From Luteibacter sp. 9135 (GTDB lineage Bacteria > Pseudomonadota > Gammaproteobacteria > Xanthomonadales > Rhodanobacteraceae), in assembly GCF_000745005.1 (NCBI RefSeq), contig NZ_JQNB01000001.1:1459001-1523000 (forward strand): 64,000 nucleotides of DNA. Direction: 5' to 3'. Of this stretch, positions 15,250-19,239 are shown one piece after another. The notes beneath the pieces were generated by a model. It ran no database searches. It saw only the letters and a program-made list of their open reading frames with translations, and was not told the origin of the DNA. Position numbers and translations under genes: made by a program. Position 1 is the first letter of the stretch, and each line of letters opens with the position of its first letter.

Positions 15250-16239
15250 GCGCATGTCCACGCGTTCGCCCATCATCGGCGTCGTGAGCGGCACCTGCGC
15301 GGCGGCCGCCAGGGCGACGATGCGCTCGAAGGGCTCTTCCCAGGGGTGCAGGGCCAGGTCGAACGTGCCGTTGTGGATCGGCAGCAGCCAGCGGCCGCGG
15401 AGGTCCAGGTGCGCCTGCAGGGTTTCTTCCGGCTGCATGTGCACGAAGGCCCATCGTTTGTCGTACGCACCGGTTTCCATCAGCGTGAGATCGAACGGGC
15501 CATAGGTATCGCCGATCGCCTTGAAGCCGTTGAAATAGCCGCTGTCGCCGCTGAAGAACACGCGCAGTTCGTCATCCTGGATCACCCAGGACACCCACAG
15601 GCTGCGATCGCTGTCGCGCAACCCGCGTCCGGAGAAGTGCTGCGCGGGCGTGGCGGTCAGGCGCAGGCCCTCCACCTCGGTGGACTGCCACCAGTCCAGT
15701 TGCTCGACCTTCGACGCGTCGATGCCCCAGGCGACCAACTGATCGCCCACGCCCAGCGGTGCGATGAAGCGGGCGGTCTTGCCGGCCAGCTTCAACACCG
15801 CGGCCCGGTCCAGGTGGTCATAGTGGTTGTGCGAGAGGATCACGCCCGCGATGGGCGGCAGGTCGTCGATACCGATCGGGGGTGCATGGAAGCGTGCCGG
15901 CCCGGCCCACATGACCGGCGACGCCCGCTCGGAAAACACCGGGTCGGTCAGCCAGAACCGTCCACGCAATTTCATCAGCATCGTTGAGTGGCCCAGGCGA
16001 TACAGGCTGCGGTCGGGCGCGGCGTCCAGCATCGCGCGGTCGATCGCGTGCACCGGTATCGGCCGGTCCGGCACGGTACCTGCGGGCTTGCCGCGCAGGA
16101 ACAGCGACATGAGCTTCAGCCCTTCCCACAGGCCCATAGACGGACGTGGCCTTGGGTTCGTGAAGCGACCCTGGCGGAACTGGGGCGACTGGTCGTAACG
16201 CGAAAGGGCGTGCGACGGGTGGCGAGTGATGGCAGTCAC
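15214..16239 (-). CDS. Metallo-beta-lactamase-fold hydrolase (UlaG/NAPE-PLD-like)
   Basis: This 341-residue MBL-fold hydrolase has the metal-binding motif HNHYDHLD at residues 137-144 and the metal-bridging aspartate in FFSGDSGYF. A later histidine lies in LLPIHNGTFDLALH. The RLGHSTMLMKLRGRFWLTDP segment is typical of the branch containing UlaG-like lactonases and N-acyl-phosphatidylethanolamine phospholipase D. The start is a GTG at 16239 with AGGAAG seven bases before it. It has no signal peptide and is probably cytosolic. The substrate cannot be assigned. The adjoining acyltransferase gene points the other way and overlaps its 3' end. Confidence 0.85.
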   Translation of the reverse strand: MTAITRHPSHALSRYDQSPQFRQGRFTNPRPRPSMGLWEGLKLMSLFLRGKPAGTVPDRPIPVHAIDRAMLDAAPDRSLYRLGHSTMLMKLRGRFWLTDPVFSERASPVMWAGPARFHAPPIGIDDLPPIAGVILSHNHYDHLDRAAVLKLAGKTARFIAPLGVGDQLVAWGIDASKVEQLDWWQSTEVEGLRLTATPAQHFSGRGLRDSDRSLWVSWVIQDDELRVFFSGDSGYFNGFKAIGDTYGPFDLTLMETGAYDKRWAFVHMQPEETLQAHLDLRGRWLLPIHNGTFDLALHPWEEPFERIVALAAAAQVPLTTPMMGERVDMRSPNGMTPWWRA

Positions 16240-16361
16240 AGAGCTTCCTGGAAACAGGGGTTGTGTAGCCTCGTAACTATACCAGTGAGTTTATTAATGA
16301 ACGATTGCGGCGTTGGTCGCAGCCGTGAAGCATCGGTATCGGCACGCGGCTTCTCTGCGGG

Positions 16362-16448
16362 GAGGAGGCGTCGGGTGGTCACCCTCTGCGCTCGGGCAGC
16401 GGCCGCAAGCGGCCGAACTCGCTCAGAGGATGACCACCCGACACCTCC
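16362..16448. repeat. Palindromic element, copy A (downstream side of the FRG gene)
   Basis: A near-perfect hairpin of 87 bases: outer arms 16364-16381 and 16431-16448 match except at one position, CTCTG/CAGAG forms a middle stem, and CGGCCGC/GCGGCCG the tip (16400-16415). Its 45-base core (16384-16428) is identical to the reverse complement of the core of copy B. It sits in the 375-base gap between the MBL gene and the FRG gene. The rest of that gap is AT-richer with no visible gene, and presumably holds the MBL promoter near 16270-16310. Confidence 0.88.
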
Positions 16449-16614
16449 GTGACGACTGAAGTGTCGGGCCGGGAGAGCAACACCCGCTGCGTTGACCGAC
16501 GCGAGATCGCCAGGGTGTCCCCGCCCGAGGTCGCACAGGCTCTGCTATACGCCCACGCTTGCCTAAGTTACTGATGCTGGATCGAACGCGCTCAATCATA
16601 TGATCCAAGAAATT

Positions 16615-17982
16615 TTACAGCTCGGGGGGCACGTCAAGCGGCGCAGCCGTACTTGTAGGCTTGAAAGCGTAGCGGCGCGCGATGTAGCGAGCTGAGTTTT
16701 CGATGTTTGGAAAGACCGTACTCTCGTTGATGTTCAACTGGTCGAGCTCGCGTAGGATCTTGGCCTTTTCGGAAATGGCGATACGGGTGACCGTGATTTC
16801 ATCGGTTCCAGACTCGTTAAGAGCCGCGTCGTGCCCGAATAGAAGAAACGCTCCCGATTGAAACGAAATACGTGTATTCGTGCGCTTACCCTTAACGCAT
16901 AGAACCCGTTTGAGGTCTTGCGGAATGATCTTCGGCTCGAAAAAAGTTTTTTCTTCGCGTATGAAGTGGAGTAGCCGCCTGACTTGCTCCTGTCGGTTGA
17001 ACTCGTCGATGTCAGTCAGCGAAAAATCGACGGCTTCTTTCGCCTCGTGGTCTAGGCGTGCCAAGTTGGCAATGCAGCTGGCAGTATCTGAGTCGAAATA
17101 ACGGACGTGGCCCGGCCTTACGGAAAAAATTACAATTTCACCCGTGTCGTTTTCATAGGCTGTGTCATTGCATGCAAAGAACAAAGCAATGAGAGGATTC
17201 GACGTGATGTCCAGCAAACGCGTTGGTAGCGAGTAATGCTGCATGCGTACTAAGCGATCGAGGGTGTGGGTATCCTGCTCGAAGTCTGCGGAGTTCGATA
17301 TCAATAACTCCCGGTAGAGACGATGCTCCTCTTCGAGGTGTTTGTAGTTTCCCTCTACGTCTCGTCGAAATAACGACGGCTCCAAGCGAAACGTCTGGGC
17401 AGCATGCCCGCGGTAAAACACTTCCCACCGCTCAGGGTGGGCCCGTCTCAGTACGGCGCTAGTGAAGGCACCCACCGATGAGACGCTTTCAGCTGGCTCG
17501 TCGGGCGGCGGGAGATCAACGGGAAGCGTTGGCGGGGAAAGTCCAACTGCACCTGCCGCGCTGAGTACTTCCATAAGGTTCGCTGATTTAACGGCCCAGT
17601 GAGTCCTGTTCAACTCCCAATTCCGGATATCCAGTTCGAGCCGTAGCCGATTCACCACATTGAACGGAATGGGGGCAATAGTGCGGTCGATTTCGAAATG
17701 TATCCGAATGACGGTCGACCGCTCCTCAATGAGGGTGATCTTGCCAATCAGCATCGGCTGATCATCGCCTTCGTAAGCGAAGAGGGTCGGCAAGCTCTTG
17801 AGGAGATCCATTCGCTTCGACGTAAGCGGAGTGAAGCTCCTAGCCAGCTTTTCTGTGGTGTATTCGAGGAACCGATTGGAGCCGAATTCATAGACAGTGC
17901 GCTCCCATGCCCCATCGGCCGCCGTGACGAGGAAGTTAAACAGTGTTTCCTGATGGGGGCTCGTCCCTGTGCTAGCAGTCAT
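16615..17982 (-). CDS. FRG-domain protein, candidate accessory or defence gene
   Basis: This 455-residue protein has an N-terminal region of about 165 residues of no known family, then a Pro-rich link (150-163), then an FRG domain. The domain shows FYRGH (189-193), QHYSLPTRLLD (248-258), NPLIALFFA (262-270) and GEIVIFSV (281-288), the usual order of FRG motifs. The ATG at 17982 follows GAGGT. The open frame runs on to 18261 through copy B of the repeat, but that extension is not protein-like. Base composition is clearly AT-richer than the neighbours, pointing to horizontal transfer. The gene stands alone between inverted copies of a palindromic element. FRG proteins occur in accessory and phage-related regions; their biochemical activity is unknown to me. 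Confidence 0.85.
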   Translation of the reverse strand: MTASTGTSPHQETLFNFLVTAADGAWERTVYEFGSNRFLEYTTEKLARSFTPLTSKRMDLLKSLPTLFAYEGDDQPMLIGKITLIEERSTVIRIHFEIDRTIAPIPFNVVNRLRLELDIRNWELNRTHWAVKSANLMEVLSAAGAVGLSPPTLPVDLPPPDEPAESVSSVGAFTSAVLRRAHPERWEVFYRGHAAQTFRLEPSLFRRDVEGNYKHLEEEHRLYRELLISNSADFEQDTHTLDRLVRMQHYSLPTRLLDITSNPLIALFFACNDTAYENDTGEIVIFSVRPGHVRYFDSDTASCIANLARLDHEAKEAVDFSLTDIDEFNRQEQVRRLLHFIREEKTFFEPKIIPQDLKRVLCVKGKRTNTRISFQSGAFLLFGHDAALNESGTDEITVTRIAISEKAKILRELDQLNINESTVFPNIENSARYIARRYAFKPTSTAAPLDVPPEL

Positions 17983-18102
17983 GGTTGGACCTCGGTGGCG
18001 CTCGGGTTCGGCTATGAACCTGAAGTATGCCCCTGATCGCCTCGAGAAGCTCTGAGCTTGCCCCCGCTTTGCCTCTCCGACATGCTTGCCTCTGTCGTCG
18101 CA

Positions 18103-18188
18103 GAGGTGCTGGGTGGTTACGCTCTGAGCGAGTTCGGCCGCTTGCGGCCGCTGCCCGAGCGCAGAGTGTGACCACCCAGCGCCTCCTC
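18103..18188. repeat. Palindromic element, copy B (upstream side of the FRG gene)
   Basis: This 86-base element is the inverted counterpart of copy A. Its 45-base core (18122-18166) is identical to the reverse complement of 16384-16428. In the outer arms TC/GA pairs of copy A are replaced by CT/AG, so stem pairing is kept. It lies in the 333-base gap between the FRG gene and the glutaredoxin gene. Beside it is a short 6-bp tandem repeat (CTGGCT-type, 18211-18230) and then a terminator; no gene is seen there. Confidence 0.88.
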
Positions 18189-18265
18189 GCCGCGCCATAC
18201 GAGCGACGCGCTCTGGCTCTGGCTCTGGCTTCGGGACAGGCCCCGGCCATGCGTGAAGCACGCAA

Positions 18266-18295
18266 AAAAAAGCGCCCTCCGGTGGGCGCTTTTTT
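18266..18295. terminator. Bidirectional Rho-independent terminator
   Basis: AAAAAAGCGCCC pairs with GGGCGCTTTTTT around a six-base loop. It has T-runs on both strands. On the minus strand it ends the glutaredoxin-rhodanese transcript and separates it from the FRG cassette. Confidence 0.9.
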
Positions 18296-18315
18296 CCCTC
18301 GCGAAACAGCCGGAC

Positions 18316-19239
18316 TCAGTAACGCGGCACCGTCGGGTCCACCTCACGTGCCCAGGCATCCATGCCGCCTTCCACGTTGAACAGATTCGTGAAGCCATGG
18401 GCGGCCAGGCGCTCCGCGGCGGCCTGGCTGGAGATGCCGTGGTGGCAGATGAAGGCGATCGGCGTGTCCTTCGGCAGCGCGGCAAGCGCCTCGTAGCCCT
18501 CGTCCTCGAGAATGCGCGCGCCCGGCAGAGGGGCCGCCGCGGCACGGCCGTGCGCCGGACGCACGTCGACCAGTGTCAGGCCACCGGCGGCGAGCTTGTC
18601 CTTCAACTGGTGCACGCTGATCGAGGCGATGTCGACGGCGCCGGGGAACTTCAGGCTGAGGCCTTCGCCCTGCACGGTGCTCACCCAGTCGATGGTGATG
18701 CCCTTGGCGCGCGCGGCGCTGCCCGGATCGAAGTGCACCTCGATGCCGTTGGCCACCACCACGATGTCGAAATCGCCGGCCGGCGCCAGCTGGAAGCCGG
18801 CGCTGTGGTCCGGGCCGATCTCCAGGTGCAAGGCCATGCCCTGGGCCGTGGCCATGCCGCCACGGATGGCCTCGGCGGCCTTGTCGGTGATGGCGATCTC
18901 GGGCGGCGTGCGATCCGGCGGGCTGGCGCCGAACAGCGTGTAGAGCTCGCCGCTGGTGTACATCTGGCGGATGATGTCGGACCCGCCGACCAGCTCGCCC
19001 TTCACGTACAGCTGCGGAATGGTCGGCCACTGGCCGTATTCCTTGATGCCCTCGCGGATCTCCGGGTCTTCCAGCACGTTGACGGTGTGGTAGGCCGGGA
19101 TGATGTCGTTGAGCGTGTTCGTGGCCGCGGCGGAAAAACCGCACATCGGCTGCTGGCGCGTCCCCTTCATGAACAGCACGACCTCGTGCTGGGCCAGGAG
19201 GGATTCGATGCGCTCGCGTGTGGGTGTTTCGAGGGCCAT
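18316..19239 (-). CDS. Monothiol glutaredoxin fused to an A-type-like domain and a rhodanese domain
   Basis: This 307-residue protein has three domains. Residues 1-107 are a Grx4/GrxD-type monothiol glutaredoxin with the CGFS site at Cys33 and the conserved WPTIPQLYVKGELVGGSD segment; such proteins bind and transfer 2Fe-2S clusters with glutathione. Residues about 112-200 resemble HesB/IscA-type scaffolds but lack the cysteines that hold a cluster. Residues about 205-307 form a rhodanese domain with the putative active Cys265 in FICHHGISS. Plain GrxD proteins are about 110 residues long, so this is a fusion. It is probably a cytosolic iron-sulfur trafficking protein. It ends at a strong terminator. 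Confidence 0.9.
   Translation of the reverse strand: MALETPTRERIESLLAQHEVVLFMKGTRQQPMCGFSAAATNTLNDIIPAYHTVNVLEDPEIREGIKEYGQWPTIPQLYVKGELVGGSDIIRQMYTSGELYTLFGASPPDRTPPEIAITDKAAEAIRGGMATAQGMALHLEIGPDHSAGFQLAPAGDFDIVVVANGIEVHFDPGSAARAKGITIDWVSTVQGEGLSLKFPGAVDIASISVHQLKDKLAAGGLTLVDVRPAHGRAAAAPLPGARILEDEGYEALAALPKDTPIAFICHHGISSQAAAERLAAHGFTNLFNVEGGMDAWAREVDPTVPRY

Follow-up and report, generated by a model that had tools for sequence, protein, structure and literature searches.

Why does a single AT-rich gene lie between two inverted palindromes in Luteibacter sp. 9135, and did the palindromes have any part in bringing it there? The stretch analysed here (the window, 64,000 nt) corresponds to C1:1459001-1523000 of the strain's genome (G000, a single contig of 4.49 Mb), and the gene in question is a 455-codon open reading frame (ORF) for an FRG-domain protein at 16615-17982 on the minus strand, the sole ORF enclosed by the inverted arms. 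The explanation that we favour, to which we give about an even chance, is that an acquired single-gene anti-phage candidate of PUA-FRG type sits inside a copy of a repeat element that is its landing site at least and possibly its carrier. This proposal starts from what was observed, being the sequence of the locus, a repeat family, the absence of the gene from the sampled relatives and the defence genes near some of its homologues. In what follows, congeners carry labels of the style G001-G022 and single loci that were compared carry L-numbers (such as L057 and L229).

The GC content of the FRG gene is 53.7%, compared with 67.3% for the window and 66.8-68.3% for the adjoining acyltransferase, MBL and glutaredoxin-fusion genes, and its AT-richness is matched by 3 of the 627 segments of 1365 nt in the window, which start at 16501, 16601 and 16701. 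The arms (16357-16459 and 18091-18193) are 103 nt long and 88% complementary. Both are palindromic, and their DNA folds on either strand with z values of -4.0 to -6.2, with none of 200 shuffles as good. Also, if up to three mismatches are allowed, the window holds two occurrences of a 25-nt piece of the palindrome, where none is expected. The picture given in an earlier note on this DNA, of an AT-rich FRG gene between inverted palindromes, is thus borne out. The same note described one palindrome in inverted copies; the inversion stands, but there is not a single type, since the palindromes belong to two subtypes, L and R, of the same element.

In its standard form this element consists of an L hairpin, a core of ~120 bp and an R hairpin. 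At the FRG locus, the left side holds an L-type unit on the plus strand (16361-16450; inverted repeat, DNA fold and a covariance model score of 106.3 bits, the unit being in the training set) followed by nearly the whole core (16451-16564, plus strand), which is kept to about position 207 of the standard element of ~300 bp, with 84% identity over 208 columns for hairpin and core together. On the right side, a core end (18059-18091, plus strand) precedes an R-type unit inverted to the left one (18100-18189, minus strand; 108 bits, also in the training set). Alignment shows that about 35 bp of core are present on both sides in diverged form, the stretch 16530-16564 (plus strand) recurring at 18059-18091.

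Concerning the protein, residues 188-276 (17155-17421, minus strand) match the Pfam family FRG (PF08867; 1.5e-20, 74.4 bits against a cut-off of 25). Invariant residues include R191, H193, Q248 and E349. Moreover, two PADLOC models of PDC-S15 (300 and 286 positions) match residues 164-440 at 2.2e-99 and 5e-99. The FRG domain is common to both, whereas the models reach the C-terminal part alone and leave the predicted N-terminal domain outside the match. 'PDC' stands for a candidate system. The FRG domain is placed in the ADP-ribosyltransferase (ART) superfamily, as an immune effector, in PMC9503650. The N-terminal domain (about residues 9-150; 17533-17958, minus strand), which the earlier note had left as unknown, gives a confident fold model (predicted local distance difference test score, pLDDT, 91.6), whose structural neighbours are uniformly of the EVE/YTH/ASCH type at moderate Z, and it is therefore predicted to be a base reader of the PUA superfamily. 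A search by sequence for relatives of solved structure gave none at E ≤ 1. A model of the full-length protein was set aside, its C-terminal half being unreliable and too poor for the ART fold or catalytic residues in the FRG part.

This predicted reader-effector layout is unusual. In the open-licence literature no paper was found that treats the EVE domain and FRG together, and FRG is nowhere mentioned in an EVE census paper. The EVE-HNH modification-dependent endonuclease VcaM4I (PMC7897488) differs in having a nuclease effector in place of FRG, and shares 8% identity. Based on the models, the protein is predicted to join a sensor of modified nucleic acid to an effector of ADP-ribosyltransferase type, and if this prediction is true, a base-reader domain in the style of type IV restriction would be coupled to an ART-type effector. 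In the proposed mechanism, the gene would enter by horizontal acquisition, the EVE/YTH/ASCH-type domain would sense modified or foreign nucleic acid, and the FRG domain, in response, would stop the infected cell as an NAD-consuming or ADP-ribosylating effector.

The neighbours of FRG homologues agree with a defence function. In a first scan of 110 neighbour proteins (chosen by the authors from the 158 listed, 22 loci), 188 PADLOC families were matched at 1e-10, with at most three proteins per family among the 25 families listed; one ATPase can match many families, so the figure of 188 overstates. In the control, 84 proteins from element-flanking regions of the window's genus that were not species-matched, three families were each matched once. 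Pfam added one CAP12-type TIR protein among the homologue neighbours. In a second scan of 20 large neighbours, a non-random sample picked by hand for size after the first scan, eight matched PADLOC models at 1e-40, at 6 of 14 loci. The defence genes matched were PDC-S06 (three Pseudomonas loci), PDC-S68, a short prokaryotic Argonaute (pAgo) with its SIR2 partner, PprPIWI and GajB. In the three Pseudomonas loci (L133, L136 and L147), the PDC-S06 gene ends ~120-150 bp before the FRG homologue, a possible two-gene unit.

The protein could instead be another toxin or a regulator that hitchhikes near defence genes. This is consistent with the standing of PDC-S15 as a candidate system in PADLOC and with the picked neighbours that lack a strong match. 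However, homologues lie near Gabija, short-pAgo and other systems at 6 of the 14 loci and occur in phage genomes, and the protein has the predicted reader-plus-effector layout; we consider a non-defence role unlikely. The defence assignment of the earlier note is thus supported, as far as the PDC-S15 match and the neighbours compared with the control can tell, and the FRG protein is probably an anti-phage sensor-effector, as a candidate.

How did the gene reach this genome? In a first search at E ≤ 0.001, 10 of 61 relatives matched, the own genome included, and the other matches were partial. At E ≤ 1e-60 the own genome is the sole carrier among 233 genomes of the family (the own and 232 others). 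Elsewhere, 2175 homologues were found at E ≤ 0.001 among the best 7997 candidates scored, with a query coverage of 93-100% for the 120 listed. The best named one is from Rhodanobacter glycinis (67%), which means that the 233-genome sample misses some carriers, and the others listed, Xanthomonas, Pseudoxanthomonas, Rhodoferax, Burkholderia and Pseudomonas among them, show 53-58% identity. Outside G000, the GC of the FRG gene lies below that of its flanks in 38 of 39 loci, the exception being L155. Moreover, tblastn gave 216 plasmid records, 188 of them predicted to be conjugative and all below 60% identity; the relatives on the predicted conjugative plasmids are distant and cover most of both protein parts. 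Six phage records also hold a homologue, five of them with at least 80% coverage; two of the six are the same phage. For example, the P2-like Peduovirus P22H1 carries a distant homologue (L222 320-1684) as its last gene but one, past the replication gene; it has most of the N-terminal part and is annotated as hypothetical. This end of P2-like genomes is a known place of defence genes. Judged from sequence comparison, this sporadic distribution and the plasmid and phage homologues indicate that the FRG gene is horizontally acquired, as the earlier note had proposed.

The site itself was compared in 22 congeners, in a stretch of ~7 kb on the downstream side of the glutaredoxin-fusion gene (G015, ~6 kb; G006, ~2 kb). 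In four of them (G005, G016, G017 and G019), the acyltransferase gene stands directly beside the glutaredoxin fusion, with ~105-226 bp between the aligned ends and with no MBL gene, FRG gene or hairpin at the site. In G001, 1.4 kb separates these two genes, and no acyltransferase was found in the stretch compared for the remaining 17. The view that a housekeeping run had been interrupted between the MBL and glutaredoxin-fusion genes is not established, since the MBL gene was found in none of the 22 stretches; its orthologues of at least 76% identity occur in four congeners (G018, G022, G004 and G014), none of them within the compared stretch. This suggests that the MBL and FRG genes were likely both acquired by this lineage. 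Taken alone, much of this is ordinary: an intergenic PDC-S15 gene of horizontal origin, and a repeat that is mostly empty.

The repeat is indeed abundant. An exact pattern count (30-nt piece, up to three mismatches) gives 29 hairpin units in G000, and the reversed pattern none. Of these, 24 form 12 inverted pairs and 5 are unpaired. Ten of the pairs are elements of 294-341 bp, with no room for a gene, and the two longer ones are the FRG locus (1827 bp) and 309990-311254 (1265 bp). A first-look BLAST, in which 40 of 70 candidates were scored, adds one recombined copy (at 478192) and one half copy (at 1376293). A gene-free copy (L117) has its flanks 443 bp apart in G000 and 94 bp apart in the element-free counterpart in G018. 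Looking for target-site duplications, we found A- or T-runs adjoining both ends of copies L051 and L056, and no duplication was resolved for L117 or at the FRG locus.

The L and R ends differ in their surroundings. A run of at least five T lies within 100 nt of 11 of 17 R ends and of none of 12 L ends, the value for random stretches being 2.2%. At the FRG locus, this T-run is that of the terminator-like inverted repeat 3' of the glutaredoxin-fusion gene (18266-18295, minus strand), which adjoins the R end. Because R ends often adjoin a T-run, one is to be expected at the glutaredoxin terminator. This bears on the possibility that the FRG gene came into an intergenic region in which two hairpin units were present, or arrived afterwards, independently of each other, the R unit being the usual solo one by a terminator. 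The unpaired units fit this coincidence, as does the region 4178075-4179448 of G000, where a single L unit and a complete element 1 kb away enclose an ordinary glyoxalase-family gene, so that enclosure by chance happens; moreover, a hairpin pair of its own lies 3' of this glutaredoxin gene in G022. Nonetheless, the left side of the FRG locus keeps a near-complete core, down to the portion that usually borders the R hairpin, and this suggests that a single element was interrupted; moreover, enclosed modules recur in other species (G002 and G001). A coincidence is, on balance, somewhat improbable.

To return to the element as a landing site or carrier, its family was sought in relatives. With the L half-unit at E ≤ 1e-5 (three candidates per genome scored), 4 of the 233 family genomes match, all in the window's genus; when the palindrome alone is the query (E ≤ 0.001), 6 of 23 genus genomes match, two of them via stretches of ~30 nt. 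In 23 aligned units from four species, compensatory changes occur at 10 of 28 stem pairs, and 98.2% of cells keep pairing compared with 37-48% when the partners are slid; none of 500 shuffles reaches the covariation score. The hairpin is therefore maintained, which says nothing of its use, the units having been found by similarity. The strands of the internal loop, GCTCRRRCA and GAACTCGC, show little variation. A scan of the compared loci for these strands with pairing flanks revealed a longer hairpin form in two more congeners, G022 and G001, of which the covariance model recovers one of two G022 copies (2.5e-5) and both G001 copies (1.6e-4 and 4.8e-4). In G022, an inverted pair of the long form lies directly 3' of the glutaredoxin-fusion gene (L107 1086-1574), which in the window also borders the element.

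Among known repeat classes, the FRG locus would sit in something resembling a large REPIN (a hairpin of paired repetitive extragenic palindromic, REP, sequences) or a miniature inverted-repeat transposable element (MITE). REPINs and bacterial interspersed mosaic elements likewise have two inverted palindromic units at near-constant spacing, dispersed in the genome (PMC3116915, PMC2817692), whereas their units are 20-40 bp long (PMC3733652) and those described here ~90 bp. Also, the constant GTAG or CGTC tag of REP sequences and REPINs is absent, CGTC being present in some L units without being constant. REP-associated tyrosine transposases (RAYTs) provide a further difference, since the sole Y1_Tnp (RAYT-like) match of the genome (L122 1212-2023; G000 1697503) is flanked by GTAGGAGCGCACGATGTGCGCGA repeats and not by this hairpin. 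The palindromes were accordingly rejected as REPs of this resident gene, which has its own GTAG repeats. Repeats of the type GTAGGAGCCGCTATAGCGGC, similar to GTAGGAGCGCACGATGTGCGCGA, adjoin several G002 hairpin units. MITEs and cassettes mobilised in trans share the short and near-constant length, the inverted ends and, at a few loci, enclosed DNA, and inverted ends with near-constant length were indeed found in ten pairs (294-341 bp); the difference is that no partner transposase was found and no target-site duplication resolved. Integron cassettes have attC sites in direct orientation and an integrase, whereas the hairpin units are inverted. A known structured RNA was rejected as well, Rfam giving one sub-threshold match outside the element. 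Our literature search for the hairpin element or for hairpin-bracketed effector modules found nothing relevant.

Other hairpins enclose or adjoin DNA of interest. In G000, two R units at 309990-311254 enclose DNA of 55% GC (flank 67%) with a 141-aa ORF that matches neither Pfam nor NCBIfam. The search for its relatives gave only a 133-aa version at 99% on two other contigs (the longest 1.2 Mb) and a predicted 78-aa version on its own contig, so its reality is uncertain. The 90% cluster of the FRG protein has one member, from the own contig; set against the 99% relative of this orphan on two other contigs, this hints, indirectly, that a very close genome may lack the FRG gene. In G002 (L057 2265-4747), inverted units (170 bp, 91%) enclose a Tlde1 gene (5.7e-29), an ORF of 100 aa and a second, truncated Tlde1 copy; a hairpin remnant lies between the two Tlde1 copies, which points to a duplicated module. 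Elsewhere in G002, a single unit stands next to a Tlde1 gene (3.6e-33) with an ORF of 97 aa. In G001 (L229 1129-2395), the gene of a 151-aa Tlde1 protein and an ORF of 87 aa lie between the arms of an inverted repeat (174 bp, 95%) that is built on the long hairpin. The small ORFs beside Tlde1 genes may encode immunity proteins. No Tlde1 match was found in G000. A structured hairpin family with single conflict modules between or beside its units in three species is unusual.

The hairpin pair could accordingly be a nonautonomous transposon whose ends mobilise their contents by means of a trans-acting transposase, with the FRG gene as cargo. Inverted units bracketing low-GC DNA at the FRG locus, at 309990-311254, in L057 and in L229 fit this, as do the varying end combinations (L-R at the FRG locus and R-R at 309990) and the element-free counterpart of a gene-free copy in G018. 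However, no transposase-bearing member was found; the outer motif of R ends (up to three mismatches) occurs in four places, all known copies, and yields no further members. Moreover, the left end at the FRG locus lacks the outer motif present at some other ends, no target-site duplication was resolved there, and the rarity of filled pairs and the absence of the hairpin from FRG loci elsewhere, given below, argue against it too. We regard such a transposon as doubtful, and the movement of a cassette in trans, as the earlier note had it, is not upheld. An extended form of the same idea, in which inverted pairs of the hairpin (~90 bp, in other species ~150 bp), read through the conserved internal loop and not through the stem sequence, capture single conflict modules (FRG, Tlde1) and move them with the help of a trans enzyme, the FRG cargo being a modification-sensing PUA-FRG defence protein, also seems improbable.

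Several results weigh against the reading we favour, an acquired defence candidate in an element that acts as landing site or carrier. In G000, 10 of 12 pairs hold no gene. The hairpin is missing from all 45 FRG loci taken from public genomes, and an earlier screen of 39 of them gave no inverted pair on the scale of the 103 nt in the window, so that the hairpin was rejected as a general companion of FRG genes. At 1e-40, 12 of the 20 picked neighbours have no PADLOC match. A hairpin match was found in 4 of 12 Tlde1 loci (3 of 11 places) compared with 1 of 51 other loci (50 from congeners), with a one-sided p of 0.016 by places; without G002, where the link was first noticed, this becomes 1 of 8 compared with 1 of 49 (p 0.26), and the association of element and Tlde1 was not borne out as a statistic. 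Finally, the present data do not separate a carrier from a landing site or a coincidence.

Based on these comparisons, a role of the element as carrier or landing site of conflict genes is plausible, but the counts do not prove an enrichment of accessory genes at the hairpins. The cassette of the earlier note is thus upheld in part: acquisition and a defence assignment are supported, whereas carrying genes is not the norm of the element. That note had also named genome-wide repeats with no link to accessory genes as evidence to the contrary: the repeats are abundant, but the lack of a link is not clear, since two G000 pairs hold low-GC DNA and congener units enclose or adjoin Tlde1 modules. 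If hairpins carry conflict genes, they would offer a small, countable model of how single defence or effector modules enter chromosomes outside large islands.

Minor features of the locus remain. A consensus scan of 16200-18400 gave no promoter, and the terminator-like repeat at 18266-18295 was absent from the output of the terminator scan over the same range. A single R unit in L053 has on its inner side a 548-aa ORF of lower GC (21-1667) that matches neither Pfam nor NCBIfam. Both long pairs of G000 have the 13-nt sequence TCGGCTATGAACC a short way inside their right end (window 18008-18020; L050 3604-3616), and it occurs at no other place among the 221 loci compared. Finally, the outer flank typical of R ends (18190-18263, plus strand), identified by flank comparison and T-run counts, extends up to the glutaredoxin-fusion terminator, and its variable run of GGCTCT/GGCTTC hexamers (window 18210-18236), seen at many R ends, could be a microsatellite.
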